Source: a virus. From it: 41,782 nt of DNA. Made by a program: the position numbers and the translations under genes. The stretch covers positions 1 to 41,782 of IMG/VR virus record IMGVR_UViG_3300032799_000147; one strand, 5' to 3'. Shown in pieces: positions 9,539 through 25,965 of this stretch (its first letter is position 1; each line of letters begins with the position of its first letter). The notes under the pieces are model-generated. The model saw only the letters and a program-made list of their open reading frames with translations, was not told where the DNA came from and searched no databases.

Positions 9539-11710
9539 CTAGATCCGGCACGCCTTCCCGCCAATCGTCGCCGGCGGCAACCTCCGCCCCTTCCGTCGCC
9601 ATGCCCAGTGCCCCCCGCCCCTTGCATGGCCGTAGGCCATTCCCCCCCGCTCCCTCTGCCCGTCCGCCTCCTCGTCGATCAAACCCAGGTCCGCGAAGTA
9701 CCGGATATTGTCCACCGGATCCTTGCACGCCCCATGTTCACCGTCCGTCCACTTCCAGTTCTCCATCGCATAGATCGTGTTCTCGCAGGCGTCGCTGAAA
9801 TACAATCGCGGCGCGTTAAGGAAATTCGTCCCCTCCGTGTCGCCCGGGACAGTCGCGTAATCCAGTAGTCCATTGATCCGGCCAATTCCATCCCCGATAT
9901 CGTTTCCCGGCGTCAAATCGAAGTACAGTCCAATCCGTTCCAGGTCCGTCTGCAACGTCACCGGCCGGTCCCGTTCCATTCTCGGATTCGTCGCCGCCCG
10001 GCTGTCCACATATCGCCCCTCCATCAACTCCGCATCTTCTCCGCCTTCTTCCCAGCCATCCAGTTCCTCGTTGTCTGGCACTCGATCTCTTTCATTCGTC
10101 CCGTTCTTCTCCGCCCTTTGCTCTCTGCTCTCCCCGCCATGCGCCATGCGCCATGCGCCATGCTCTCTCCATCCCTCCACTCTCGCAATCTCGAACTTCA
10201 ATCTCAGCGTCCCGAATCCCCAGGGTCCCTGACCTTCGCCCCGCGCCCCGTCGTTCAAACCTTCCTTCCGTCCGCTTGGAATCGCCCAGGGCCCGGGCAC
10301 CCCCACCTCCGGCACCCAGTATCCTCCCGGCCATTCCCGATACACATAGGCTTTCCCATCGTTCACCCGGATCCATGTCATAAACACATTCCGGCCGCTC
10401 GCCGGATCCAGAAACAGGTAATTCCGTCCCTTCGTCGGAATCGCCGCCGCCGGCACCACATGCACTGCCCGTTTGAACTTCGGGAACTTCCCATGTGCCA
10501 CCCGGTCCGGAAGTCCGTAGAACCGTTCCTTCACTCCCCCCATTCCCCCCGTCGTCTTCACCCGCAAATCCGCCGCCACCTCCTTCGGGTTCCCATACGG
10601 ATTATCGCTGCTCCAGAAGAACACCACCGCCTTCCGTGGATCCCGGCATCTCATCACCCTCGGCATCGTCTCGAATGTTCGCGCGTCGGGCCGCCCTCCC
10701 GGTCCGGTTCCAGCCGCCCCGAATTCGGTCGGGGCGGCTGGTTTGTCCAGCCACTCCAGCACGTCCTCCGGCCTGCTCTCCGGCGCCATGGCCGCCCGTT
10801 TCTCCCGCACTGCCTCCACAATTTCCCCGTACTCCTGTTCGCTTAGTCCCAGCGCCTTCCATTCCAGCCGGTCTCCTCCGTCCTTCGGACACAGGTACGC
10901 CGGCGCTGCCATCGCCACAGTCGCGCCCTCCAGGAATATCTGCACGCTGGGCGTGTACCCGTTCACCGGAGTAAACCCGATCAACCCCTTCCCTGCCCGG
11001 GTGGCCAATCGATACACCAGGTTCTCGATCCAATCCGGCGGGATCAATTCATCCGGCGTCACGAGGTCCAGTTCCAGGCCTTGGACCGCCGTGTCCATGT
11101 CCTGCGTGTAATTCACAAAGCGTCCCTGGCTCAGAATCGGTGTAATGAACGATCCATCCGCAAACCCCGTCTTCAACTTGTACTTGATATACGCCTCCGC
11201 CGTCTGGACTTGTTTCCGCCACTCCGGCGGCATGTGTTTCCAGAACAGTGGCTGTTGTTCCATCACGCTTCGCGGCTGGCTCATGTGCATCGCCACTACC
11301 GTGCTCTTCGGTCGGTTCGCGATCATCTCCATGCTCAGTTTCGCTTCCAGTTCGCTCTTCCCCGACCGTTGTCCCCCCAGGACCAGGACCATTTTCACAG
11401 GTTCGGAGAAACCCAGTCTTCTTCGCATCGCCCCCTTAAACTCCTCCCACGTCATTCCGAGTCGTCTTTTGATCTCATCCTCCCACCCCTTATGGCACCA
11501 GGGCCAATCTAGCAGCGCCCGGACCACGAGCCAGATCGAAGGTTCCCACCCGCATCGCAGCGGGTCGTACTGTTCCCCGGCGATCACCTTTGCCCGCTTC
11601 TCCAGCAGTCTTCGTAGTGCCGTCTCCGCGTCACATCCCGCCGCCGCCATTTGCCCCTCGATCTCCGACAGACACGGCGCCGGCAATACCGGATGACTTT
11701 GGATTTTCAT
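9539..11710 (-). CDS. terL: Terminase large subunit
   Basis: About 723 residues from the ATG at 11710, whose ATGA overlaps the stop of the upstream gene. Walker A is GGQRSGKS (about residue 112); a Walker-B/catalytic-Glu-like LDLVTPDE lies near residue 215; the nuclease domain starts near FLDPASGR (about residue 428). It packages DNA into the prohead by docking to the portal. Two repeat elements have entered the gene: a palindrome at 10711-10740 (translated PAAPTEFGAA) and a CTCTGCTCT/GCCATGC array at 10119-10165 giving a GAWRMAHG repeat near residue 520. Both keep the frame. Confidence 0.85.
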   Translation of the reverse strand: MKIQSHPVLPAPCLSEIEGQMAAAGCDAETALRRLLEKRAKVIAGEQYDPLRCGWEPSIWLVVRALLDWPWCHKGWEDEIKRRLGMTWEEFKGAMRRRLGFSEPVKMVLVLGGQRSGKSELEAKLSMEMIANRPKSTVVAMHMSQPRSVMEQQPLFWKHMPPEWRKQVQTAEAYIKYKLKTGFADGSFITPILSQGRFVNYTQDMDTAVQGLELDLVTPDELIPPDWIENLVYRLATRAGKGLIGFTPVNGYTPSVQIFLEGATVAMAAPAYLCPKDGGDRLEWKALGLSEQEYGEIVEAVREKRAAMAPESRPEDVLEWLDKPAAPTEFGAAGTGPGGRPDARTFETMPRVMRCRDPRKAVVFFWSSDNPYGNPKEVAADLRVKTTGGMGGVKERFYGLPDRVAHGKFPKFKRAVHVVPAAAIPTKGRNYLFLDPASGRNVFMTWIRVNDGKAYVYREWPGGYWVPEVGVPGPWAIPSGRKEGLNDGARGEGQGPWGFGTLRLKFEIARVEGWREHGAWRMAHGGESREQRAEKNGTNERDRVPDNEELDGWEEGGEDAELMEGRYVDSRAATNPRMERDRPVTLQTDLERIGLYFDLTPGNDIGDGIGRINGLLDYATVPGDTEGTNFLNAPRLYFSDACENTIYAMENWKWTDGEHGACKDPVDNIRYFADLGLIDEEADGQRERGGMAYGHARGGGHWAWRRKGRRLPPATIGGKACRI
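10119..10165. repeat. CTCTGCTCT and GCCATGC arrays inside terL
   Basis: A CTCTGCTCTC run followed by four GCCATGC units, translated in frame as a low-complexity insert between the nuclease core and the C-terminal domain of TerL. The same CTGCTCT type occurs at about 6520-6548. Confidence 0.8.
10711..10740. repeat. Palindromic repeat copy 2
   Basis: A 30-bp inverted repeat with 12-bp arms (CAGCCGCCCCGA / TCGGGGCGGCTG) inside terL, related to 9321-9340. Confidence 0.85.
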
Positions 11711-11994
11711 TCCAGATATTTCCCGATCAACTTCCCCACTCCGCTGGGCCCCAGGGCCGTCTTGCCAATTCCGCGCCACCGTCCCCAGCGCCCCTCGTCA
11801 TTCTGCTCGCGCCGAAGCCGGATCACCGTCATGGGCCGGTGGCTGTCCCTGATCGTGATCTCAATAACCCGGTCCGTCCGCACCGGTTCCCCGGCCAGTT
11901 TCTCGTGGTACTTCCTCCAACGGCAATCGGCTCCATGTTGTCCGCGATTGCTCCGCTTCCGCTTCCTCTTGCCCCAGTACGACTTGCTACACAT
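11707..11994 (-). CDS. Small basic protein starting in the attI-like repeat
   Basis: 95 residues. The first 19 (MCSKSYWGKRKRKRSNRG...) are encoded by the 99-bp repeat and are shared with the short gene at 25909; the rest is unique and basic. The stop overlaps the TerL start (ATGA). Position and basic charge would suit a small terminase subunit, but I see no HTH. It could equally be the vestige of a gene disrupted at the recombination site. Confidence 0.6.
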   Translation of the reverse strand: MCSKSYWGKRKRKRSNRGQHGADCRWRKYHEKLAGEPVRTDRVIEITIRDSHRPMTVIRLRREQNDEGRWGRWRGIGKTALGPSGVGKLIGKYLE

Positions 11995-12040
11995 AAGTAT
12001 TCGCTCCTAGCGACGGTTTTCACTCAATGCGTTGTTGGAC
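11938..12040 (+). other. attI-like site at the head of the left cassette array
   Basis: Positions 11938-12036 are repeated inverted at 25867-25965 with a single mismatch over 99 bp. Identity ends exactly at the GTT of the core (GTTGGAC here, GTTCGGT there). No matching second arm is present, so it does not fold like an attC. It stands at the left end of an array whose attC sites have their top strand on plus, the place attI occupies in integrons. Confidence 0.65.
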
Positions 12041-12357
12041 TCATCGCGGTGAACTGCTACACACATGGCCGCCTCCGCCTGCATCGCCGCCGCCAGGGCC
12101 GCCCGGTGCGCCCGGAAGAACAGCGGCGGCAACGCGTCCTTCAGGGCGTTGCAGGCCCGGCACGCCGTCACCATGTTTGCCGGGTCATCGGACCCGCCGT
12201 GCTTTGTCGGCCAGAAGTGGTCAATGCTCAGTTGGTCCTCGGCAAAGACGCCGCCGCAGTAGGCGCAGCGGAATCCGTCGCGGGCGTAAATGAACGCTCG
12301 CCACTTCCTCCGCATCCTCTTGCCTCTCTGTTTCGGTGTCATGTCAGAGTCCAACAT
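12007..12357 (-). CDS. HNH endonuclease (first cassette)
   Basis: 116 residues. The HNH core is clear: CAYCGG, then LSIDHFWPTKHGGSDDPAN with the catalytic His, then CRACN. It binds a structural zinc and a catalytic metal and nicks or cuts DNA; phage HNH proteins often assist packaging, and this one is next to terL. The ATG is in the core of attC1 and the last residues (NNALSENRR) are encoded by the attI-like repeat. It could also be a homing-type cassette gene. Confidence 0.85.
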   Translation of the reverse strand: MLDSDMTPKQRGKRMRRKWRAFIYARDGFRCAYCGGVFAEDQLSIDHFWPTKHGGSDDPANMVTACRACNALKDALPPLFFRAHRAALAAAMQAEAAMCVAVHRDESNNALSENRR

Positions 12358-12408
12358 CCGCGTGCAGACTAGCTCGCTCCGCTCGCAGTCTGACGCGGGG
12401 CGTTGGCG
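12349..12408 (+). other. attC1
   Basis: GTCCAAC...GTTGGCG, 60 bp. Arms CGCGT-G-CAGACT and AGTCTGACGCG pair with one extrahelical G, 8 nt after AAC. Confidence 0.8.
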
Positions 12409-12412
12409 ATGC

Positions 12413-12655
12413 TCATCCAGCGTTGAAGCTCGCGCATATCACGCCCTTCTGCGTTCCGTCCTTGGCCTCGCCGATGTACTCGCATTGCACCGCGTTCGGA
12501 TCGCCCACCCAATCGCTGAATGGTTCCGGCTTGATGACCGATCCATCCCTAGGATGCATGATCTTCGCCTCGGTGTCCGTCTCTGCGGCGACCACCGCAG
12601 AATCGTAGGTGTCGTATCCTTGGTTCACCGTCTGACTGATATGCCACAGTTTCAC
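12413..12655 (-). CDS. Cassette protein, family unknown
   Basis: 80 residues from a GTG with AAAGGAG upstream, overlapping the previous stop (GTGA). Contains AAETDTEAKIMHPRDG and VQCEYIGEAKDGTQKGVICASFNAG, predicted alpha/beta. The stop falls just before attC1. It resembles small stand-alone phage accessory proteins; no function assigned. Confidence 0.65.
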   Translation of the reverse strand: MKLWHISQTVNQGYDTYDSAVVAAETDTEAKIMHPRDGSVIKPEPFSDWVGDPNAVQCEYIGEAKDGTQKGVICASFNAG

Positions 12656-13329
12656 TTCGTGCTCCTTTCATTCGTTCCGCCAACCAGCCCGTCCAGGGTA
12701 CGCGGCTCCGCCGCGCCCCTGACGGCATTGTTGGCCTTAATGTGATACTCTCGGCAACCAACTACTCCTCCTCCTCGCCATTCGGCTACACCCGCCACGT
12801 CCAATCGACGTAACCGATATTGGTATCTCCTCCACAGGACCATCTCGTCTTCGGAAAACCAGCGTCCTTTCGGACAGTCGGCCAGAAATTCCTTGTCTGA
12901 TTTCGTAAGGCCAACAACCGCTTGCAAACTAGCTCGCGTCCCGCTCGCAGTTTGAAGCGGGGCGTTCGGTTTACAGGTCACAGCCGATGCGTCAGCCGTC
13001 ATCCGGTCAGTCCGTGGCACCTCGAACGGCGTGCGGCCACAGCACGGCATCACGCCAGCCCCGTCGGGAGGGCATTGATGGACAACCGAACAAGGTGGTG
13101 GAGAGGTACGCGGCGAAGCGCCGCGCCCCTCACCACCAGCGTTGGTGCTACGAAGAATCACCCCGGTCTTGCCATCGGTCAGCATGGCGGAGCCGGGAGG
13201 CAACAGCGGGTTCTCGATGATGGTTATGCCCATGATCGTCTTGTGCTTCGGCAACGGAGGAAACTGGAACGGATGCACCAACAAGGCATCCGAGCGTACC
13301 AATGAAGCCGCGCTCACGTCCTTGCTCAT
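12652..13329 (-). CDS. Chimeric protein: three cassettes fused in frame through attC linkers
   Basis: 225 residues with an excellent AAGGAGG ribosome site before the ATG, which lies in the loop of attC5. Segment 1 (to about residue 63) is a small beta protein; then comes an attC4-encoded linker. Segment 2 (about 85-120) has a CPPDG...CCGRTPFEVPRTDRMT zinc-ribbon motif known from small phage proteins, but has no start codon of its own. Then comes a linker from attC3 (NAPLQTASGTRASLQAVVG). Segment 3 (about 140-200) is helical (SDKEFLADCPKGRWFSEDE). The end is encoded by attC2. It may be a true fusion or one gene followed by read-through remnants. Confidence 0.55.
   Translation of the reverse strand: MSKDVSAASLVRSDALLVHPFQFPPLPKHKTIMGITIIENPLLPPGSAMLTDGKTGVILRSTNAGGEGRGASPRTSPPPCSVVHQCPPDGAGVMPCCGRTPFEVPRTDRMTADASAVTCKPNAPLQTASGTRASLQAVVGLTKSDKEFLADCPKGRWFSEDEMVLWRRYQYRLRRLDVAGVAEWRGGGVVGCREYHIKANNAVRGAAEPRTLDGLVGGTNERSTK
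12678..12736 (+). other. attC2
   Basis: GCCAAC...GTTGGCC. CCGTC-C-AGGG-TA-CGCGGC pairs with GCCGCG-CCCCTGACGG; the extra C and A on the top-strand 5' arm are exactly where canonical integron attC sites carry them. Near-copy at 13933. Confidence 0.9.
12909..12970 (+). other. attC3
   Basis: GGCCAAC...GTTCGGT. Main family type: AACAACCGCTTGCAAACT pairing with AGTTTGAAGCGGGG, one extrahelical G. Confidence 0.9.
13085..13147 (+). other. attC4
   Basis: ACCGAAC...GTTGGTG. GGTGGTG-G-AGAGG-TA-CGCGGC pairs with GCCGCGCCCCTCACCACC. Intact version of the remnant at 8832. Confidence 0.9.
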
Positions 13330-13379
13330 ATCAAACCTCCTTCTGCGGCTTCATTGGCCGCTCAATGCCAGCGTTGGAA
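13276..13379 (+). other. attC5 (long, carries a start codon)
   Basis: CACCAAC...GTTGGAA, 104 bp. Arms GGCATCC-GAGCG-TA-CCAATGAAGCCGC and GCGGCTTCATTGGCCGCTCAATGCC pair. The loop holds, on minus, AAGGAGGTTTGAT and the ATG of the chimeric gene ending at 12652. Confidence 0.88.
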
Positions 13380-13546
13380 CTCTTCACTGGCAAATTGCTT
13401 TTCCCCTTTTCGTTCCAGCAGATATAAGATGTTGCGCGTGCGTAACTGGCACCGCATCGAAAGTCCATCTTGTGTTTCGGGTTGTTGCCCGCTTCAAGCC
13501 ATTTCTTCCGCAACCACTTCAAGTTCTTAACATCCTGTTTGTTCAT
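13331..13546 (-). CDS. Small basic cassette protein
   Basis: 71 residues, Lys/Arg-rich (LKWLRKKWLEAGNNPKHKMDFR), with two Cys. GGAGGGAAC precedes the ATG, which lies just after attC6. The last 14 residues come from attC5, and the TGA sits inside the ribosome site of the next gene, so translation is coupled. Function unknown. Confidence 0.65.
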   Translation of the reverse strand: MNKQDVKNLKWLRKKWLEAGNNPKHKMDFRCGASYARATSYICWNEKGKSNLPVKSSNAGIERPMKPQKEV

Positions 13547-13908
13547 GTTCCCTCCGTTCCAACAACCGCTTGCAAACTAGTTCGCGTCCCGCTCGCAGTT
13601 TGAAGCGGGGCGTTGGGCAACACAGCGCGAATGCTCGCCATCGTTGCCTCCAGTTCGGTCACGCGGGCCTCTGCCGTGTCGGCGCGGCGCTTCTCAGCGT
13701 CACGTTCCTGCACGGCCTTGCGTAGCGCCCCGGCGTCGTCCCAGTGCTCGCGGACCCAGCGCGCCGTCCACTCGATCCTGTCACGCGGACCGCTCGCGAA
13801 TCCGGGCGGGCAGCCGGGGAGCGTCAGCGCGGACTCGCGCAGCGCGTCCGCTTCTGCCAGACGCTCGCCGTGCGCCTTCAGTTCCTTGGTCAGTGTCTCG
13901 ATGTCCAT
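13543..13908 (-). CDS. Coiled-coil cassette protein
   Basis: 121 residues. DIETLTKELKAHGERLAEADALRE and AVQERDAEKRRADTAEARV form two coiled-coil segments around a CPPGF/WTARWVREHW centre. The end is attC6-encoded (NAPLQTASG...), and its TGA overlaps the next ATG (ATGA). Likely dimeric; function unknown. Confidence 0.6.
   Translation of the reverse strand: MDIETLTKELKAHGERLAEADALRESALTLPGCPPGFASGPRDRIEWTARWVREHWDDAGALRKAVQERDAEKRRADTAEARVTELEATMASIRAVLPNAPLQTASGTRTSLQAVVGTEGT
13557..13618 (+). other. attC6
   Basis: TTCCAAC...GTTGGGC, main family type with a perfect GTTRRRY core. Confidence 0.9.
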
Positions 13909-13909
13909 G

Positions 13910-14212
13910 TCACGCTCCCTTCGATTCGGAATGCCCAACCAGCCCGTCCAGGGTACGCGGCTCCGCCGCGCCCCTGACGGCATTGGTGTTGGGCTTCACT
14001 TGAAACAGCGTCCTCATCAATTCGTCAGCGGCTTCGTTCGCCTCGGCGTGCGTCAGTCGTGTTCGGTCCATCAGCGTGCAGGCAATCGTGCATTTCCACA
14101 CCAGCACAAAGCCGTCATCATTTCGGAAGGCGCGTGTCAGGTCGCGCACGGCGCGCCCAGTTTTCCAATGCTTCAGGTTGCTCCACCACACCCGCATTCG
14201 TTCCATGTTCAT
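13910..14212 (-). CDS. Cassette protein, family unknown
   Basis: 100 residues, starting MNMERMRVWWSNLKHWKT, helical, Trp-rich. Its ATG overlaps the previous stop (ATGA). The C-terminus (NAVRGAAEPRTLDGLVG) is encoded by attC7. Its TGA lies in the ribosome site of the coiled-coil gene. Confidence 0.6.
   Translation of the reverse strand: MNMERMRVWWSNLKHWKTGRAVRDLTRAFRNDDGFVLVWKCTIACTLMDRTRLTHAEANEAADELMRTLFQVKPNTNAVRGAAEPRTLDGLVGHSESKGA
13933..13994 (+). other. attC7
   Basis: GCCCAAC...GTTGGGC, both cores match consensus exactly. Near-copy of attC2. Confidence 0.9.
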
Positions 14213-14676
14213 GCCTCACCACCTTTCAGTTCGGATCGCCCAACATCCGGCTGGAGGCTACGGCTACGCCGCGCCTCAGCCGGGGCGTTCGGCCACGGTT
14301 CATCCGTCACTGTGCGTCGCACAATTCGCGTCGCTACGATGCCCTTGCGCACACACTCAGGCCGGTGGCGGCGTTTCTCGAACTCCGCCTGTGAATCCTC
14401 CAACACTTTCGCGGCGTCCGGTGCCGTCTTGACCATTGGCGCAACGTCAAACCAATCCCTCTCCGGTTCGTCCCACATCGCTTGAGCGATGAATCCCTGC
14501 CGTGTTTCAGGTTCAAAGAGTTCCCTTGGCAAAGTTTCACTCGGATCGGGCGGCTTGCTGAATATCTCTGCCAGTCCCGGAGGAAGTTTCGGCAGTCGCG
14601 GCAAGCGGCCAAATCCACGCGGCAGCCGAACAATCGGGTCGAGTCTAGCCTTGCCCCGCGTCGCTTTCTTGTTCAT
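14209..14676 (-). CDS. Basic, Pro/Arg-rich cassette protein
   Basis: 155 residues. The first 15 are encoded inside attC9 and the ATG lies in its loop behind AAAGGAAA. Contains RLPRGFGRLPRLPKLPPGL and a KTAPDAAKVLEDSQAEFEKRR helix. The tail is encoded by attC8. The stop overlaps the next ATG. No family recognised. Confidence 0.6.
   Translation of the reverse strand: MNKKATRGKARLDPIVRLPRGFGRLPRLPKLPPGLAEIFSKPPDPSETLPRELFEPETRQGFIAQAMWDEPERDWFDVAPMVKTAPDAAKVLEDSQAEFEKRRHRPECVRKGIVATRIVRRTVTDEPWPNAPAEARRSRSLQPDVGRSELKGGEA
14238..14293 (+). other. attC8
   Basis: GCCCAAC...GTTCGGC. CCGGCT-G-GAGGC-TA-CGGC pairs with GCCGCGCCTCAGCCGG. Confidence 0.9.
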
Positions 14677-14721
14677 GCTTTCCTTTCTCCGGGCAAGGCA
14701 GACTCACCCGGAACGTTCTGC
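14625..14721 (+). other. attC9 (long, carries a start codon)
   Basis: GCCGAAC...GTTCTGC. CGGGT-C-GAGTC-TA-GCCTTGCCC pairs with GGGCAAGGCAGACTCACCCG. The loop encodes, on minus, a ribosome site plus overlapping stop/start ATGA (14673-14676). Confidence 0.9.
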
Positions 14722-14966
14722 GCAAGGGCTTCACCCAGCCCAATGCGCGTGATGTGGTGAGAGATGCACGAGCCACTGTCGCGGATCACGTCAATGAACC
14801 GACCGCCTATTTCGATGCTCACGGCGAGCGAGTGCTCACCAACGTGCCGCAATCCGATGCCGTCGATCTCCCCGATTTGGCGAAGCAATTCGGCATTCGA
14901 CAGTCGGCGCAGAACCAGCGGGTGGAGGCTAGCCTTGCCCGCCGCTTTGCGCGTCTTCGGCTTCAT
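14673..14966 (-). CDS. Cassette protein, family unknown
   Basis: 97 residues. The N-terminus (MKPKTRKAAGKASLHPLV) is encoded by attC10 and the C-terminus (GESALPGERKA) by attC9. The core, RRLSNAELLRQIGEIDGIGLRHVGEH, then EIGGRFIDVIRDSGSCISHHI, looks like a folded alpha/beta protein. Both ends overlap neighbours by ATGA. Confidence 0.62.
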   Translation of the reverse strand: MKPKTRKAAGKASLHPLVLRRLSNAELLRQIGEIDGIGLRHVGEHSLAVSIEIGGRFIDVIRDSGSCISHHITRIGLGEALAQNVPGESALPGERKA

Positions 14967-15011
14967 GCGTCCTTTCTGGCGGGCAAGGCAGCCTCACCCG
15001 TCGTGTTGGCC
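14909..15011 (+). other. attC10 (long, carries a start codon)
   Basis: GCAGAAC...GTTGGCC. CGGGT-G-GAGGC-TA-GCCTTGCCCGCC pairs with GGCGGGCAAGGCAGCCTCACCCG; the loop holds ATGA at 14963-14966. Confidence 0.9.
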
Positions 15012-15283
15012 CACATCGGAATCGGCAATCCAGCCGTGTAGGTGTTGCGGGCCGTTGCCCAACGGGCATCGTTTGCGCTGGTGTACGTCCACAGCAACCG
15101 GTCCCTCTCTCGATAGACGTGCAGTAGCGTCCAGCATTGTGGAGAGTGAGCAAGTCGGACTCGCCACCCGTAAACGTCCTGCCCCAGAAGGGCCAGGATC
15201 GAAATGCGCTCATTGCCCTTACGCAAGGATGGGCCAACCAGCGGGTCGAGGCTAGCCTTGCCCGCCGCTTTCTTGTATTTCAT
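14963..15283 (-). CDS. Cassette protein, family unknown
   Basis: 106 residues. N-terminus from attC11 (MKYKKAAGKASLDPLV), C-terminus from attC10. The centre (ISILALLGQDVYGWRVRLAHS, WTLLHVYRERDRLLWTYTSAND) is beta-rich with several Trp. ATGA overlaps at both ends. The termini of this and the neighbouring cassettes are alike only because related attC sites encode them. Confidence 0.62.
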   Translation of the reverse strand: MKYKKAAGKASLDPLVGPSLRKGNERISILALLGQDVYGWRVRLAHSPQCWTLLHVYRERDRLLWTYTSANDARWATARNTYTAGLPIPMWANTTGEAALPARKDA

Positions 15284-15328
15284 GATTTCCTTTCTCCGGG
15301 CAAGGCAGACTCAGCCGGGGCGTTCGCT
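15232..15328 (+). other. attC11 (long, carries a start codon)
   Basis: GGCCAAC...GTTCGCT. GGGT-C-GAGGC-TA-GCCTTGCCC pairs with GGGCAAGGCAGACTCAGCC; the loop has the ATGA at 15280-15283. Confidence 0.85.
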
Positions 15329-15783
15329 GGATCGCGGTTGCGCCGTTCTTCGACTTCGGCGTCCATCTCGTCTATGGCCCTTAGCAAGACGTAGATGTGA
15401 AGGCAACGGTCGCACGCCGTCTTGACACCATCGGGCAGTGTCTTGCCGCATGAAATGCACCGCGAACCATCAGGTGCAGGCGACGATTCACCCGCGCCGA
15501 GTGGCGTTGTCTCTGTTGTCATGGCTTCCTTCCCGGCGCGGCTGAATCGCGCCTGACCTGTTCGTTCGGAAGATCGTCTTGCGCGAGGAATGCCGCGAGC
15601 GTCCTCGCGCAGTGTGCGCAGAGACGCGACAATCTGTTCGTGCGTGAGTGCGTTCGTGTGCCCGAACGCGGCATACACCACACCGGAGCAGAATCGGCCA
15701 TGCCGCGCTAGCGTCCCAGCGTATTCGGACTGGAGCTTGCGCAGTTGGTCAACCAGTTCGTCATACGTCCCGTACTCGCTCAT
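15280..15783 (-). CDS. Two cassettes in one frame: helical protein plus zinc ribbon
   Basis: 167 residues from the ATG at 15783. Part 1 (1-72) is helical (YDELVDQLRKLQSEYAGTLARH; HEQIVASLRTLRED). The frame runs without a stop through attC12 into part 2, which could also start at its own ATG (15522, GGAAGGAAGCC upstream, in the attC12 loop) giving 80 residues. Part 2 has CISCGK and CDRCLH, a four-Cys zinc ribbon, and a helical end. Either a fusion or two overlapping products. Confidence 0.6.
   Translation of the reverse strand: MSEYGTYDELVDQLRKLQSEYAGTLARHGRFCSGVVYAAFGHTNALTHEQIVASLRTLREDARGIPRARRSSERTGQARFSRAGKEAMTTETTPLGAGESSPAPDGSRCISCGKTLPDGVKTACDRCLHIYVLLRAIDEMDAEVEERRNRDPANAPAESALPGERKS
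15461..15570 (+). other. attC12 (long, carries a start codon)
   Basis: CGCGAAC...GTTCGGA, 110 bp. CAGGT-G-CAGGCG-A-CGATTCA pairs with TGAATCGCGCCTGACCTG, continuing into a GCGCCG stem. The loop encodes RBS and ATG (15522) on minus. Confidence 0.9.
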
Positions 15784-15802
15784 TTCTTCCCCCGATCCAG
15801 AC

Positions 15803-15858
15803 TGCCAACCACGCCGTTCGACGGTACGGCTTCGCCGCCCGTCAACGCGGCGTTGGAG
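15803..15858 (+). other. attC13
   Basis: TGCCAAC...GTTGGAG. CGTT-C-GACGG-TA-CGGC pairs with GCCGCCCGTCAACG. Confidence 0.85.
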
Positions 15859-15864
15859 AGCATA

Positions 15865-16104
15865 ATGAAAGACCAAGAAAAGCAGATCATTTCAAATGCC
15901 CTTCGTTGCAGTCGGGCGGACCCGACTGTGTTCACGTTTAAGTGTCTCGGTTGCCCGAAGCACTTTCAGAAAACGTTTCGTTGGTTTGAACGTCATAACG
16001 GTAGTTGCCCATCTTGTGGATCGAAGCTCGACCGTAAAGAATTGGGAGAATATCTTTTGACGCTTGCAGAACGCCGCAAGGCGGCGTTGGAACGAGAGGA
16101 ATGA
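15865..16104 (+). CDS. Zinc-ribbon cassette protein on the plus strand
   Basis: 79 residues, with GGAGAG before the ATG right after attC13. CLGCPKHF...CPSCGSK forms a C-x2-C/C-x2-C ribbon, and the C-terminus is a charged helix (LTLAERRKAALEREE). Unlike most genes here it runs in the canonical integron direction. A minus-strand frame covers the same bases but lacks recognisable features. Confidence 0.65.
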   Translation: MKDQEKQIISNALRCSRADPTVFTFKCLGCPKHFQKTFRWFERHNGSCPSCGSKLDRKELGEYLLTLAERRKAALEREE

Positions 16105-16168
16105 ATCCTCAGAAAGCAATAACATACCATGCAATTCGACAAGCCGTTTTACGTTCATGTCCATCATG

Positions 16169-16327
16169 TCAACCTTCCTTCCTGCGGCTTTTGTGGCCGC
16201 TCAATGCCAGCGTTTGCTTCCTCTCTTCGCGTCTCCACAGCCAATCGCACAAACGGGGGGCAATGAATAATGACCCAAACACATTTCCTACCAGGAAACA
16301 GACTATCACGAATATTTCCTTTTCCAC
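16169..16327 (-). CDS. Small membrane protein
   Basis: 52 residues from a GTG with AAAGGAGG 5 nt upstream. A hydrophobic segment (IFVIVCFLVGNVFGSLFIA, about residues 5-23) is followed by a basic tail (WRREERKQ...KSRRKEG), so it is probably inner-membrane with the C-terminus inside. The last residues are encoded by a half attC sequence (16180-16215) resembling the right arm of attC5. Confidence 0.6.
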   Translation of the reverse strand: MEKEIFVIVCFLVGNVFGSLFIAPRLCDWLWRREERKQTLALSGHKSRRKEG

Positions 16328-16357
16328 TTTGCACCTCCTTTCATCAAACATCAGAAT

Positions 16358-16419
16358 GTCCAACAACCGCTTGCAAACTAGCTCGCGTCCCGCTCGCAGT
16401 TTGAAGCGGGGCGTTGGGG
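16358..16419 (+). other. attC15
   Basis: GTCCAAC...GTTGGGG, main family type. Confidence 0.9.
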
Positions 16420-16421
16420 AT

Positions 16422-16775
16422 ATGAAAATGAAACGAGAAGAATACGTTCTCCCCGTTGGCGAAGTCGTCATCATCACCGACGACGCAATCGCCAAGCGCA
16501 TTATCACTGCGCTTGGCCTTCTGGACAAACTTCAGAGTCTTCTCAATCATGTCACGACGACCGCCAATTGGATTACCAGCGAGAATCACAGTACCCACTG
16601 GGTACTCGCTGGACACTATCGAGGATTTGAAAAGCCGGAAGACAACGGCTTCTGTCTTAAATGCTATCCAAAAACAGATTTTACGTTTGAGCAGGTTCAG
16701 TCTCAACTTCGTTCCTCCATGGGTTCCTCGTGCTTTGAATTCAATAAACATCCCCAACAACCGCTTGCAAACTAG
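16422..16775 (+). CDS. Cassette protein on the plus strand
   Basis: 117 residues. Contains YVLPVGEVVIITDDAIAKRI, HWVLAGHYRGFEKPEDNG, CLKCYPKTDF and TFEQVQSQLR; codon use (GTC, ATC, GAC) fits a real gene. It begins a few bases after the GTT of attC15 and its TAG stop is inside attC16, the layout of a classical integron cassette. The opposite strand is also open but looks less protein-like. Function unknown. Confidence 0.55.
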   Translation: MKMKREEYVLPVGEVVIITDDAIAKRIITALGLLDKLQSLLNHVTTTANWITSENHSTHWVLAGHYRGFEKPEDNGFCLKCYPKTDFTFEQVQSQLRSSMGSSCFEFNKHPQQPLAN

Positions 16776-16813
16776 CTCGCGTCCCGCTCGCAGTTTGAAG
16801 CGGGGCGTTGGCG
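16752..16813 (+). other. attC16
   Basis: CCCCAAC...GTTGGCG, main family type, near-identical to attC15. Confidence 0.9.
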
Positions 16814-16816
16814 GTA

Positions 16817-16996
16817 TCAGTTGCCGCTGTCATGGTCTGGGTTCTCAGTCTGTGCGTGAGACCACGTCACGAGGTCAAGAATGCTTGCTTTGCTCGGCAG
16901 TCCCTCGGTTGCGCCGATCCAGTCGGCAAGCAGTTCATCCAGCGCCTTGTGCAGTTCCGCGTGTCGCTTCTTGTGTTCTTCCGTCGTCATCGTCAT
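16817..16996 (-). CDS. Small acidic helical cassette protein
   Basis: 59 residues. KKRHAELHKALDELLADWI, then LPSKASILDLVTWSHAQTENP, the pattern of a small conserved family found in phages and gene cassettes. AAAAGGAG precedes the ATG. The stop is a few bases before attC16. Function unknown. Confidence 0.65.
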   Translation of the reverse strand: MTMTTEEHKKRHAELHKALDELLADWIGATEGLPSKASILDLVTWSHAQTENPDHDSGN

Positions 16997-17021
16997 TCTC
17001 CTTTTCGTTGTTCGATCAAAC

Positions 17022-17085
17022 CGCCAACAAGAGCCTGGAGCACTACGGCTCGCAAGCTCGCCGAGGCTCAGGCTCGGCGTTGGTC
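17022..17085 (+). other. attC17
   Basis: CGCCAAC...GTTGGTC. GAGCCT-G-GAGC pairs with GGCTCAGGCTC. Confidence 0.85.
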
Positions 17086-17417
17086 TCTCGTGTTCTTGGA
17101 ACATCCGTTGAAACGGCGTTGAACTCCTTGCAGTGGCCTGCGAGCAGATGAATCTTGAGACCGGTCGCGTCGAAGTTCGTCTCTCCGCAGAACGGACAGG
17201 CCATCTCGTCGCAGCACTGGTCGTGTAGTTCTTCGTTCCGGGCGTTGGCGGCGTAACCTGTAGAAGCGTCATCCCACTCGGTCTGATACCGTCGAATTGC
17301 GGATGTCGCCTCTTCGTGCGATATGAACAAGTCGGAGTACGCCTTCCAAATCGCCTTCTCAAACTGTTCTGGCGTACCGTGCTTCTCTGCCAGTTCATCT
17401 TGCTTTGCTGTTCTCAT
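17043..17417 (-). CDS. C2H2-like zinc-finger cassette protein
   Basis: 124 residues. Helical first half (FEKAIWKAYSDLFISHEEATSAIRRY as adjoining helices), then CPFCGETNFDATGLKIHLLAGHC, a C2HC/C2H2-like finger at about residues 73-95. The last residues are encoded by attC17. Possibly DNA-binding. Confidence 0.7.
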   Translation of the reverse strand: MRTAKQDELAEKHGTPEQFEKAIWKAYSDLFISHEEATSAIRRYQTEWDDASTGYAANARNEELHDQCCDEMACPFCGETNFDATGLKIHLLAGHCKEFNAVSTDVPRTRETNAEPEPRRACEP

Positions 17418-17430
17418 TGGTCCGCCTTTC

Positions 17431-17490
17431 TGCCAACAACCGCTTGCAAACTAGCTTCGCTACCGCTCAAGGCTGACGCCCGGCGTGTAT
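17431..17490 (+). other. attC18, degenerate end of the left array
   Basis: Left half matches the main family (AACAACCGCTTGCAAACTAG), but the right arm and GTTGG core are replaced (GACGCCCGGCGTGTATG). It marks the distal end of the array. Confidence 0.7.
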
Positions 17491-23198: not shown

Positions 23199-23430
23199 AT
23201 TCGCCGTTATGCGACGGATTCGCAGCATCGCGACGTGGGGCGTGGGGCGAAATGTTAGGAAAACTGGCGATTTTGTGCTTACAGCGGGCGTTGGCACACT
23301 CCCTGCTCATGACAGACCCGTGCAACCGATTGAAACAATAGACCAAGCCCCCCAACGCGGAGACCATAGCGAGCGCACGCTTGCCGGTTGCACACCCGAC
23401 GCGGGGGGCACCTATACGGGAGGGCGGGGA

Positions 23431-23562
23431 ATGAACGAGAAACAGGCGAGAGCGGAGATCGAACGGCTGGGTGCGGTGTGCGTGGTGCGGACGCTGGACT
23501 GGGGCACGGAGTATCGCGGGCTTGACGGTGAGGGGAGGACGGTGTTTGTGGTTGTGATTTAG
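23431..23562 (+). CDS. Small early protein
   Basis: 43 residues: NEKQARAEIERLGAVCVVRT, then LDGEGRTVFVVVI. One helix and a beta hairpin. GGGAGGGCGGGG before the ATG. First gene of the rightward operon. Function unknown. Confidence 0.6.
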   Translation: MNEKQARAEIERLGAVCVVRTLDWGTEYRGLDGEGRTVFVVVI

Positions 23563-23564
23563 GA

Positions 23565-23595
23565 GGGTGGCGGGGAAACCATAGGAGGGCGGGGA
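23565..23595 (+). repeat. Repeated leader with ribosome-binding site, copy 1
   Basis: GGCGGGGAAACCATAGGAGG then GCGGGGA before the ATG. An identical leader precedes the gene at 23876. The unit duplicates a translation-initiation region. Confidence 0.8.
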
Positions 23596-23841
23596 ATGAA
23601 AGCGATGACAAAAGCAGAGGCATGGGATCACGTTAGAGGTATGACTTTGGTTTGGGATTACTGTAAAGATGGCACAGCGGCGTGCAACGCCGCCGGCGTG
23701 CAGAGTTGGTTCTTGCGTACGGAGCGGGGCTGTCCATCTCTCAAAGTGTGCCGGGGGATTGCGGCGGAAATACGGCGAAGCGCCAGAAATCCCTTTGGGC
23801 GTGGAGTTGGTGACGGAGCGGGACAAATCAGGTTTTGCTAA
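23596..23841 (+). CDS. Small early protein
   Basis: 81 residues: TKAEAWDHVRGMTLVWDYCKDG, then AACNAAGVQSW and a basic second half. Preceded by the repeated leader. Probably an early host-takeover protein; no family recognised. Confidence 0.55.
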   Translation: MKAMTKAEAWDHVRGMTLVWDYCKDGTAACNAAGVQSWFLRTERGCPSLKVCRGIAAEIRRSARNPFGRGVGDGAGQIRFC

Positions 23842-23844
23842 CCC

Positions 23845-23875
23845 CGGCGGCGGGGAAACCATAGGAGGGCGGGGA
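23845..23875 (+). repeat. Repeated leader, copy 2
   Basis: Same leader as 23565-23595, including the AGGAGGGCGGGGA ribosome site, directly before the ATG at 23876. Confidence 0.8.
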
Positions 23876-23983
23876 ATGAAAAAGATGAAATTTGTGAAAA
23901 TAGTTGTTGCATACGCAAGCGGCTTGTGCAATGATGCTCTCAACAACAGCGGGAAAGACCCGCAGAAAGGGAGAGCAACATGA
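23876..23983 (+). CDS. 35-residue early peptide
   Basis: MKKMKFVKIVVAYASGLCND, followed by a basic hydrophilic end. The strong repeated ribosome site and ATGA coupling to the next gene support expression. A short hydrophobic helix could make it membrane-active or amphipathic. Confidence 0.5.
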   Translation: MKKMKFVKIVVAYASGLCNDALNNSGKDPQKGRAT

Positions 23984-24267: not shown

Positions 24268-24463
24268 TCCGGTCCATGACTACCTGGCCGAGATCGGGCG
24301 CAAGGGCGGGGCTGCCGGACGCGGCCCCGCCAAGGCCCGCACGCGCGAGCAGGCCCAGGCCGCCGCCCGTGCGCGGTGGGGGAAACGACGGAAGCGGGCG
24401 AAGCGTAGCCCCAACGACAGTCTTCACGGGCGGACACCCGCCCAGGGAGGTCGGCATGGATGA
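24260..24463 (+). CDS. Small basic protein of the RKGG...ARWGK type
   Basis: 67 residues from a GTG overlapping the previous gene. YLAEIGRKGGAAGRG, QAQAAARARWGKRRKRAK: the short Gly-Gly and ARWGK motifs mark a common family of small phage and plasmid proteins, probably nucleic-acid binding. A paralogue is at 26391. Confidence 0.65.
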   Translation: MADPVHDYLAEIGRKGGAAGRGPAKARTREQAQAAARARWGKRRKRAKRSPNDSLHGRTPAQGGRHG

Positions 24464-24725
24464 CAAGGCACGCGCGGGTGTCCGTACCGTGGAAGACATG
24501 GTTCGCGTTCCCATTTCCGACATCGTCATGCTGATCGCCGTTGCGGCCGCCGGCGACCCGGAATGGCCGAAGAGGGCGGAGGGCGTCCGGGCGCACCTCT
24601 CCGAGAACACGCTGAACGCAATCCGCGAAGTCGCCAAGCGGCTGAACGATTACGCGAACGCCCCGCTTCAAACTGCGAGCGGGACGCGAGCTAGTTTGCA
24701 AGCGGTTGTTGGCAAAGGAGAATGA
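24456..24725 (+). CDS. Helical protein entering the right cassette array
   Basis: 89 residues; GGGAGGTCGGC before the ATG. VEDMVRVPISDIVMLIAVAAAG and LSENTLNAIREVAKRLND. The last 19 residues (NAPLQTASG...) are encoded by attC-R1, exactly as for genes in the left array. Confidence 0.6.
   Translation: MDDKARAGVRTVEDMVRVPISDIVMLIAVAAAGDPEWPKRAEGVRAHLSENTLNAIREVAKRLNDYANAPLQTASGTRASLQAVVGKGE
24653..24714 (-). other. attC-R1 (right array, inverted)
   Basis: Main family type, top strand on minus; near-identical to attC3, attC6, attC15 and attC16. Confidence 0.9.
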
Positions 24726-24726
24726 C

Positions 24727-24945
24727 ATGAAGTTTCTGAGAGTCAAGCCACCGAATCACAACTGGCGATGGGGTTTCTATCAGTTTCGATGGGAAGGCCG
24801 GTGCGTTGCAATAGGATTTCGTTTTCCGTTTTCAACACTCGACCTTCGTTTATGGTTTGCCAACGCCCGTCCTCACGGTGAGCGGGTTAGCGATACCGTG
24901 CAGGACGTTGTTGGAACTTCGGAGCGAAAGGACGGTGGGAAATGA
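24727..24945 (+). CDS. Aromatic-rich cassette protein
   Basis: 72 residues. FLRVKPPNHNWRWGFYQFRWEG then VAIGFRFPF: a small beta protein with many Trp/Phe. The start is 13 nt after attC-R1 behind AAAGGAG. The C-terminus is encoded by attC-R2, and the stop overlaps the next ATG. Confidence 0.6.
   Translation: MKFLRVKPPNHNWRWGFYQFRWEGRCVAIGFRFPFSTLDLRLWFANARPHGERVSDTVQDVVGTSERKDGGK
24858..24916 (-). other. attC-R2
   Basis: Top strand on minus: AAC-AACGTCCT-G-CACGG-TA; pairs with CCGTGAGGAC. Cores GTTGGAA and TGCCAAC. Confidence 0.88.
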
Positions 24946-25145
24946 CAATTCGGGAATGGGTCCTCGAGAACGAATCGAAATACAAAACCCCTCGAGAACT
25001 GGCAAAAGCATTCGTTCTCGAGATGTGGGCGCATTTGACGCCATACGAAACGACTCGAGAACGCATGGCGGCGGCCTCGAGGATGATCAAAATGGCTCAT
25101 AGTTCCAACGCCCCTCTTGAGCGTTTGCGAGAAAGGAAGGATTGA
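24942..25145 (+). CDS. Helical cassette protein
   Basis: 67 residues: REWVLENESKYKTPRELAKAF, VLEMWAHLTPYETTRERM, a three-helix protein. ATGA overlap at its start. The last residues (SNAPLERLRERKD) are encoded by attC-R3, and the next ATG follows the stop by one base. Confidence 0.62.
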   Translation: MTIREWVLENESKYKTPRELAKAFVLEMWAHLTPYETTRERMAAASRMIKMAHSSNAPLERLRERKD

Positions 25146-25195
25146 TATGAAGGAAAAACGCAGGTCGAGCAATACGCTCCGAGAGGTTGTTGGCA
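25103..25195 (-). other. attC-R3 (long, carries a start codon)
   Basis: Top on minus: CTCTC-G-GAGCG-TA-TTGC pairs with GCAAACGCTCAAGAG. The loop encodes, on plus, AGAAAGGAAGG, a stop and the ATG at 25147. Nearly identical to attC-R5. Confidence 0.9.
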
Positions 25196-25671
25196 GACTA
25201 TTTTCGCACCCGAATGTTGGGGGACGCAACCTACAATATTTGGATACGTTGCATTCTGCCGCGCAACTACTGGAACATGCAAGCCGACACAAGGGGTACG
25301 GAGAGTTTGCTATGGGGTGCGCCGTCGAATTGCGCCAACTGATGTGGGAGGCGAGTAAAATAATAGACGGTAGGCCGTCTGCCAACGCCCGGCTTGACCG
25401 GCTCGAAACAGCCGGAGAAAGGAATGCCATGAGTGACCACACTTCTCCGGCTGTTTCGGGTACGGTCGGAGCCGTTGTTGTGCGGATTGGTCCGTGCGAG
25501 TATCTGCTGTGCTGCGACTTCTGTTTCGAGAACGAAACTGTTGACTGCCATGAGACCGGGGAACTGCGCCCGATGTACCGAGTTGACGACGACTGCGTCA
25601 TCTGCCAGCGGTGTCTGGATGCCGGTAAGCACAACGCCCCTCTTGAGCGTTTGCGAGAAAAGAAGGATTGA
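25147..25671 (+). CDS. Two cassettes in one frame: helical protein plus Cys-rich protein
   Basis: 174 residues. Part 1 (1-94) is helical (LQYLDTLHSAAQLLEHASRH; VELRQLMWEASKII). The frame continues through attC-R4 into part 2, which also has its own ATG (25429, GGAGAAAGG upstream) giving 80 residues. Part 2 is a Cys-rich domain, CEYLLCCDFC...CVICQRC, likely a zinc-bound ribbon pair. Fusion or two start sites, as with the gene at 15280. Confidence 0.6.
   Translation: MKEKRRSSNTLREVVGRLFSHPNVGGRNLQYLDTLHSAAQLLEHASRHKGYGEFAMGCAVELRQLMWEASKIIDGRPSANARLDRLETAGERNAMSDHTSPAVSGTVGAVVVRIGPCEYLLCCDFCFENETVDCHETGELRPMYRVDDDCVICQRCLDAGKHNAPLERLREKKD
25380..25483 (-). other. attC-R4 (long, carries a start codon)
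   Basis: Top on minus: CGGCTCC-GACCG-TA-CCCGAAACAGCCGG pairs with CCGGCTGTTTCGAGCCGGTCAAGCCG. The ATG at 25429 lies in the loop. Confidence 0.9.
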
Positions 25672-25720
25672 ATGAAGACAAACACAGGAACGAGCAATAC
25701 GCTCCGAGAGGTTGTTCGGT
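25629..25720 (-). other. attC-R5 (long, carries a start codon)
   Basis: Close copy of attC-R3. The loop holds AGAAAAGAAGGA and TGAATG, i.e. the stop and next start directly abutting at 25671/25672. Confidence 0.9.
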
Positions 25721-25896
25721 GTGTGTCCGCCGAATACTGCGAGCGGAAATGGTGCAAGGGACAGAATCCTCATGAACGGGTGACGGACGGCTATGGCCAT
25801 GTATGCGGTCGGCATTGTCCGCACCATAGAGTCGCAACGCAAGTGTGTGCTCCTGTGAGTACACCGAACAACGCATTGAGTGAAAACCGTCGCTAG
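25672..25896 (+). CDS. Cys/His-rich cassette protein
   Basis: 74 residues: CVSAEYCERKWC...CGRHCPHHR, five Cys and several His, a probable zinc site. N-terminus from attC-R5; C-terminus (PNNALSENRR) from the attI-like repeat, the same ending as the HNH protein at 12007. First cassette next to the right attI-like site. Confidence 0.6.
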   Translation: MKTNTGTSNTLREVVRCVSAEYCERKWCKGQNPHERVTDGYGHVCGRHCPHHRVATQVCAPVSTPNNALSENRR

Positions 25897-25965
25897 GAGC
25901 GAATGCTTATGTGTAGCAAGTCGTACTGGGGCAAGAGGAAGCGGAAGCGGAGCAATCGCGGACAA
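25863..25965 (-). other. attI-like site at the head of the right cassette array
   Basis: Inverted copy of 11938-12036 (99 bp, one mismatch at 25905). In minus orientation it ends in GTTCGGT, after which the first cassette begins. Orientation relative to its array is the same as on the left. Confidence 0.65.

Follow-up and report, generated by a model that had tools for sequence, protein, structure and literature searches.

The 41,782-bp virus record IMGVR_UViG_3300032799_000147, which is analysed here over its whole length (the window), carries two arrays of gene cassettes bounded by integron-type attC sites. We propose that both are similar to the clusters of attC sites lacking integron integrases (CALINs), that each ends at an attI-like boundary, and that their cassettes are reversed, held to a standard reading frame and translationally coupled. 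On the sequence features set out below, we consider this reading probable. An initial annotation had described array 1; that array is real, but the description missed the second array, the attI-like boundaries, the fact that most genes run against the orientation of their attC sites and the reading frame that they share.

The window is the whole virus record in IMG/VR and a complete phage genome with a 123-bp direct terminal repeat at its ends, and had rightly been called closed. It encodes an SU10-type major capsid protein (3.8e-20) and a DnaB helicase (6.6e-39), and with capsid and replication genes in a complete genome the virus is a tailed phage of the Caudoviricetes. Its genes lie mostly on the minus strand, with the region around array 2 (~23.4-26.6 kb) on the plus strand. 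Searches of 50,697 phage records with the terminase and capsid returned remote relatives only. Two relatives were found in IMG/VR, the same two by major capsid protein and by terminase queries: L006 (11.7 kb), which for most of its length is 96-98% identical to the window at the nucleotide level, and L007/L012 (17.1 kb), with ~74% identity in the morphogenesis genes. The DnaB query retrieved no relatives, and pattern scans of viral contigs gave nothing beyond the known ones. Neither the integron integrase model TIGR02249 nor the tyrosine recombinase model PF00589 had a match in the window, and PF00589 was also absent from the records L005/L010 (an unrelated virus), L006 and L007, the relatives' contigs being partial. 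With at least two attC sites and no integron integrase, the phage carries CALINs as defined, and without an intI gene it does not carry a complete integron. As no tyrosine recombinase was found in the phage, recombination would need an enzyme supplied in trans.

The attC sites were identified with a geometric scanner and with covariance models. The scanner looks for YAAC, 8 nt, one extra base, a stem and GTTR, in the canonical order; in control runs on the class 1 integrons of two plasmids, its sites fall on the gene strand. In array 1 it found seven sites scoring at least 13, all on the plus strand (a shuffled genome gives 0.07), and in array 2 two sites scoring at least 15.7, on the minus strand. 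Covariance model R1 was trained on attC sites of class 1 integrons and of phages TJE1 and H101, and model R2 on those of class 1 and TJE1 only; neither training set held window sequence, and calibration was short. Over both strands of the 41.8 kb, R2 gave 22 matches at E ≤ 10, of which 21 lie within the arrays (15 on the plus strand in array 1, six on the minus strand in array 2) and one, a weak match, outside. R1 placed 20 of 21 matches within the arrays, and both models put every array 1 match on the plus strand and every array 2 match on the minus strand. Single-site E-values are modest, from 9e-7 to ~7; the support from the models lies in clustering and strand consistency, and the sites with weak values rest on position, fold and the complementarity of cassette ends. 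C10 (14909-15010), the degenerate C14 (~16110-16216) and C18 (17431-17490) were matched by neither model.

RYYYAAC and GTTRRRY boxes flank an imperfect stem, as the definition of attC requires, and the array 1 sites carry on their plus strand an extra-helical base at position 9, either C or G, and an additional A or TA. In total there are ~24 sites, ~18 in array 1 (12349-17490) and six in array 2 (24413-25720). The initial annotation's ~17 sites in the first of these, its placement of the extra C and A, and its view of an integrase-less phage with integron-type cassettes are borne out, and the covariance search it had proposed as a check recovers 15 of the array 1 sites (R2). An attC orientation pointing the opposite way, which would make the gene orientation ordinary, was rejected on the extra-helical bases, the two covariance models and the start of sequence variation at GTT; complementarity of spacer ends alone cannot decide the direction. 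Across the window Rfam gave only a tRNA above the gathering threshold, with no match at E ≤ 1 in the array. We take these to be genuine integron-type cassette sites, whose recombination by an integrase is predicted. The arrays, sites and boundaries are as follows (evidence in brackets; ^ marks the crossover).

12034-17490, plus (attC orientation; genes mostly minus): cassette array 1 (scanner, models, cassette ends)
12011-12038, plus: attI-like proximal boundary of array 1, ACTCAATGC-GTTG^TTGG (same sequence in array 2 and L006)
12349-12408, plus: attC C01 (scanner, R1, R2)
12678-12736, plus: attC C02, type B (scanner, R1, R2, repeat)
12909-12969, plus: attC C03, type A (R1, R2, repeat)
13085-13147, plus: attC C04 (R1, R2, cassette ends)
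13276-13379, plus: attC C05, with Shine-Dalgarno sequence and start codon of its reversed gene in the loop (scanner, R1, R2)
13557-13618, plus: attC C06, type A (scanner, R1, R2)
13933-13994, plus: attC C07, type B (R1, R2, repeat)
14238-14293, plus: attC C08 (R1, R2)
14625-14721, plus: attC C09, type C, start codon in loop (R1, R2)
14909-15010, plus: attC C10, type C, start codon in loop (fold and matching cassette ends)
15232-15328, plus: attC C11, type C, start codon in loop (cassette ends, R1, R2)
15461-15570, plus: attC C12, start codon in loop (R1, R2)
15803-15858, plus: attC C13 (R1, R2)
16110-16216, plus: attC C14, probably degenerate, R' side alone clear (direct repeat of C05; 5' box not identified)
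16358-16419, plus: attC C15, type A (scanner, R1, R2)
16752-16813, plus: attC C16, type A (scanner, R1, R2)
17022-17085, plus: attC C17 (scanner, R1, R2)
17431-17490, plus: attC C18, distal end, R' side decayed (repeat)
24413-24503, minus: attC D0 (R2, cassette ends)
24653-24714, minus: attC D1, type A (R1, R2, cassette ends)
24858-24916, minus: attC D2 (scanner, R1, R2, cassette ends)
25103-25195, minus: attC D3, start codon in loop (scanner, R1, R2, cassette ends)
25380-25483, minus: attC D4, start codon in loop (R1, R2, cassette ends)
25629-25720, minus: attC D5, start codon in loop (R1, R2, cassette ends)
25859-25965, minus: inverted copy of the attI-like boundary and start of the adjoining gene, proximal end of array 2 (96% match to L006:90-196)

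Together with its boundary copy, array 2 spans 24413-25965 and is inverted relative to array 1.

In ordinary cassettes the gene usually, though not obligatorily, points in the same direction as its attC, and this was the arrangement in the class 1 controls and in TJE1. The cassette genes of both arrays lie mostly opposite to their attC sites, along local phage transcription, and only two have the usual orientation. The reversal is also present in L012, in L010 and, by an orientation call made here, in phage H101. L010, an unrelated and more AT-rich virus, has at 11093-13634 an attC with the same 56 nt as type A of the window, together with four other attC sites, and its genes are all reversed. 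In Pseudoalteromonas phage H101 (L018:31919-33987) the genes between attC sites are opposite to the canonical attC orientation, an arrangement that the 2023 paper describing it calls typical.

Read in the direction of the genes, each site begins with AAC, a codon split by the crossover (AA^C). This codon is entered in frame 0, where it reads as Asn, by 17 of the 19 reversed window open reading frames (ORFs) that reach the next site (binomial 6e-7), and by 20 of 22 when those of L012 are added (3e-8). All genes with Pfam support enter in this frame, namely that for the HNH protein in the window and those for Lar, an N6_N4 methyltransferase and Dam in L012, as does the methyltransferase gene of L006. 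These ORFs lack a stop codon of their own. Their frame-0 stop falls at or beside the next start, mostly in an ATGA or GTGA overlap and otherwise as TGACATG or TGATATG (TGANATG). When starts were chosen regardless of the upstream frame, a stop lay within -6 to +4 nt of the start in 15 of 22 cases in frame 0, in three in frame 1 and in none in frame 2 (p 2e-5). The long attC sites (C05, C09-C12, D0 and D3-D5) hold the ribosome-binding site and start codon of their own cassette gene inside the loop. Within the type C sites (14625-15328), one frame encodes a C-terminus and another the N-terminus of the next protein (MKxKxRKAAGKASL).

Several points weigh against a common frame with coupled stops. 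The binomial test treats the ORFs as independent. With the start not fixed, frame 0 accounts for 18 of 30 against 10 and 9 in the other frames, and in this GC-rich DNA stops and starts often overlap by chance, at ~18% of AAC positions taken at random. Entry is in a frame other than 0 for two reversed ORFs (C13 to C12 and C15 to C14), three end short of the next site, and two genes are oriented in the ordinary way. The unrelated L010 and phage H101 have reversed genes with no common frame, and the frame rule may be confined to this phage group. On balance, the entry frame is the firmer result; translational coupling, as read from the positions of stops and starts, is well supported but not beyond doubt. 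The genes that illustrate the pattern and its exceptions are listed below.

12007-12342, minus: HNH endonuclease, gene of the first cassette, reversed, enters the attI-like site in frame 0 (PF01844 2.7e-11, PHROG HNH 5.7e-20)
12652-13329, minus: ORF with its start in the C05 loop that connects three cassettes by running across C04, C03 and C02 in frame 0
13331-13546, minus: example of a reversed cassette gene, with its start after C06 (ATGA overlap) and entry into C05 in frame 0
14209-15522, minus: four reversed genes, 14209-14676, 14673-14966, 14963-15283 and 15280-15522, with 4-nt (ATGA) overlaps inside C09, C10 and C11
15865-16104, plus: zinc-ribbon-like gene in the usual cassette orientation (exception)
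16422-16775, plus: gene in the usual cassette orientation, stop codon within its own attC, C16 (exception)
24456-25896, plus: reversed genes of array 2, 24456-24725, 24727-24945, 24942-25145, 25147-25671 and 25672-25896, each in frame 0 on entry into the next site

The HNH protein was also considered as a defence system and rejected, its PADLOC matches looking like generic HNH-domain matches.

Integron cassettes are cut at G^TT, and the first bases of a cassette pair with its own R'' box. The ends of the array 1 cassettes are complementary in this way: the runs of complementary bases add up to 108, a sum that none of 20,000 permutations reached (mean 57.9, maximum 84). The ends match over 6-9 nt in all six cassettes of array 2, and matching ends are likewise present in three of three cassettes of L012 and in three of four of L010. 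Array 1 has four full copies of the type A attC, and array 2 and L010 have one each; the copies are joined to different genes. They vary directly after GTT and keep CC constant before AAC, which is the pattern expected of an attC that moves together with its R'' side.

The end of array 1 reads CTCAATGCGTTG^TTGG. This sequence, together with the ~100 bp that lie beyond it, is repeated in inverted form where array 2 ends, and it is present in L006 as well. At this junction L006 diverges abruptly from the window and has a different first cassette. Three first cassettes are thus found on one sequence, encoding the HNH protein (array 1), a small cysteine-rich protein (25672-25896, array 2) and the end of a DNA methyltransferase (L006), and they join it at CCAAC or CGAAC. 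A methyltransferase gene of L012 with the same last bases as that of L006 (GGATTTCGGTACTG^CCAAC) abuts an attC instead, and the L012 array ends at a comparable boundary. In the gene direction, the boundary gives the last gene the tail NNALSENRR-stop. The shared sequence, the G^TT junction and the variable first cassette make the boundary attI-like, a candidate attI. No homology was detected between the window and L012 in the genes beside it.

Cassette content differs completely between relatives: the window and L012 have no cassette gene in common. In L012 (203-1781), cassettes for the restriction-alleviation protein Lar, an N6/N4 DNA methyltransferase and a Dam-type methyltransferase stand in a row, which suggests counter-restriction cargo. 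The notion of an accessory-gene reservoir gains partial support from this anti-restriction cargo in relatives, from the turnover of content and from the other first cassette of L006.

We suggest that the arrays were built by IntI-type recombination at G^TT, with the integrase of the host or of another element acting in trans. A reversed gene would run into the next site, where the Asn codon AAC takes its AA and its C from different cassettes. Translation would then continue through part or all of the neighbouring attC to a stop codon that overlaps the neighbour's start or lies beside it, often in the attC loop. The attC hairpin would thereby be opened by ribosomes, which would re-initiate at the gene that follows. 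As the crossover lies inside a codon of fixed frame, any cassette could stand beside any other with the operon still readable, and with this frame in nearly every cassette, insertion, loss and reordering would keep the operon translated. On this reading of the anatomy, the missing stop codons and the use of a single frame would both be accounted for, and reversed cassettes would have been kept because only these are read by the phage operon. In effect the array would be an operon of accessory genes open to exchange, counter-restriction genes probably among them. A wider proposal is that stop-less cassettes with a fixed entry frame, coupled through attC, form a phage-adapted branch of integrons, in which unrelated phages share a cassette pool and an integrase acts in trans; this we put forward tentatively, as plausible but somewhat short of an even case.

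The main uncertainty is whether the design is that of the phage or of an unseen host integron. The reversed, frame-locked layout could belong to an uncharacterised class of host integron and have been copied by the phage, which would then be vector and beneficiary and not inventor. We regard this as a serious possibility, although not the favoured one: cassette pools are normally those of host integrons, and the cassettes of phage TJE1 keep the usual orientation, but the searches turned up these attC types in no bacterial genome, and the direction of the phage operon accounts for gene orientation without a host class. A type A 22-mer and a C17-type 24-mer had no exact match in ~85,000 species genomes, and no host integron with these attC types was found in those exact or shallow searches. 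As a DNA query the array had no match in phages and plasmids, and single attC sites gave nothing or short chance matches.

It is unlikely that the arrays are an ordinary CALIN carried passively, a stretch of host integron whose orientation and frame are accidents of the donor. CALINs are known from virulent phages (PMC9892861), and an identical type A attC in an unrelated virus fits a common source; on the other side, neither k-mer occurs in the species genomes and the array does not occur in plasmids, within the limits of exact or shallow searches, and a common frame with stop/start overlap in two arrays that each follow phage transcription would be unexpected of a passenger. More doubtful still is selection of the common frame at the level of the protein, for C-terminal tails encoded by attC and not for coupling. 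Tails such as NAPLQTASGTRASLQAVVG do recur on unrelated proteins, but they differ between attC types, and the stops cluster at the next start, which tail function does not predict. Finally, imperfect palindromes between small phage genes could be terminators, repetitive extragenic palindromic (REP) or miniature inverted-repeat transposable (MITE) elements or phage regulatory hairpins, a reading made very improbable by the independent attC models, the extra-helical base at position 9, the RYYYAAC/GTTRRRY boxes, the self-complementary cassette ends, the variation starting at G^TT and the lack of any Rfam family match.

Reversed and frame-locked cassettes with coupled translation, the reading we prefer, extend a known theme. 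CALINs in virulent phages were reported by Qi et al. in 2023 (PMC9892861; TJE1, P12002L, PH101 and MW202573), and in that study IntI1 recombined five of six phage attC sites tested. The claim of a new adaptive strategy in the initial annotation is in that light overstated. The present arrays are like those phage CALINs in combining attC sites and cassettes with a genome that has no integrase. They differ from the example described there, TJE1, with three attC sites and genes along attC, in having ~24 sites in two arrays, attI-like boundaries, mostly reversed genes and a common frame. For PH101 (H101), whose genes are reversed by our orientation call, we found no discussion of this in the sections available. 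As in the sedentary chromosomal integrons of Vibrio, near-identical attC families in cassette arrays sit on unrelated genes; unlike in those, no intI was found and no Pc promoter identified, and the genes point mostly towards the attI-like end, not away from it. What is new is the mostly opposite gene direction together with the common reading frame; attC sites in phages were already known. Among the open-access papers searched, we found none that describes cassettes of this reversed, frame-locked and stop-less kind.

Hairpins formed by attC in mRNA impede ribosomes and lower the expression of the gene that follows; termination-reinitiation on a short ORF running through attC has been put forward as a way round this (PMC8876359). 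ORF-11 of attI1, whose stop codon is supplied by the first cassette, raises that cassette's expression by coupling (PMC8876359). The predicted arrangement resembles ORF-11 in that a reading frame crosses the crossover, a neighbouring cassette supplies the stop, and coupling to the next start would follow. ORF-11 is, however, a single 11-codon leader at attI serving the first cassette, whereas in the phage arrays it is the cassette genes, on the other strand, that follow this pattern at most junctions. Cassette fusions such as blaGES-1/aacA4 likewise have adjacent cassette genes as one coupled unit, which is predicted here; known fusions arose by partial or total loss of attC, whereas here attC is kept and would be translated. 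These arrays bear on two old questions, how promoter-distal cassettes are translated through attC hairpins and how cassettes circulate outside bacterial integrons. To the first the phage suggests an answer, namely one frame through every attC with the stop coupled to the next start, so that cassettes can be exchanged without broken translation. As to the second, the phage suggests that a separate cassette pool may be kept and diversified by phages themselves, here with counter-restriction genes in the relatives.

Two further features of the window were recorded. A repeat that includes a ribosome-binding site (CATAGGAGGGCGGGGAATGAA) precedes small plus-strand ORFs near array 2 (23400-23880), and a tRNA-Met (CAT) is predicted at 31976-32047, inside and on the same strand as a 2075-aa ORF (26919-33146).

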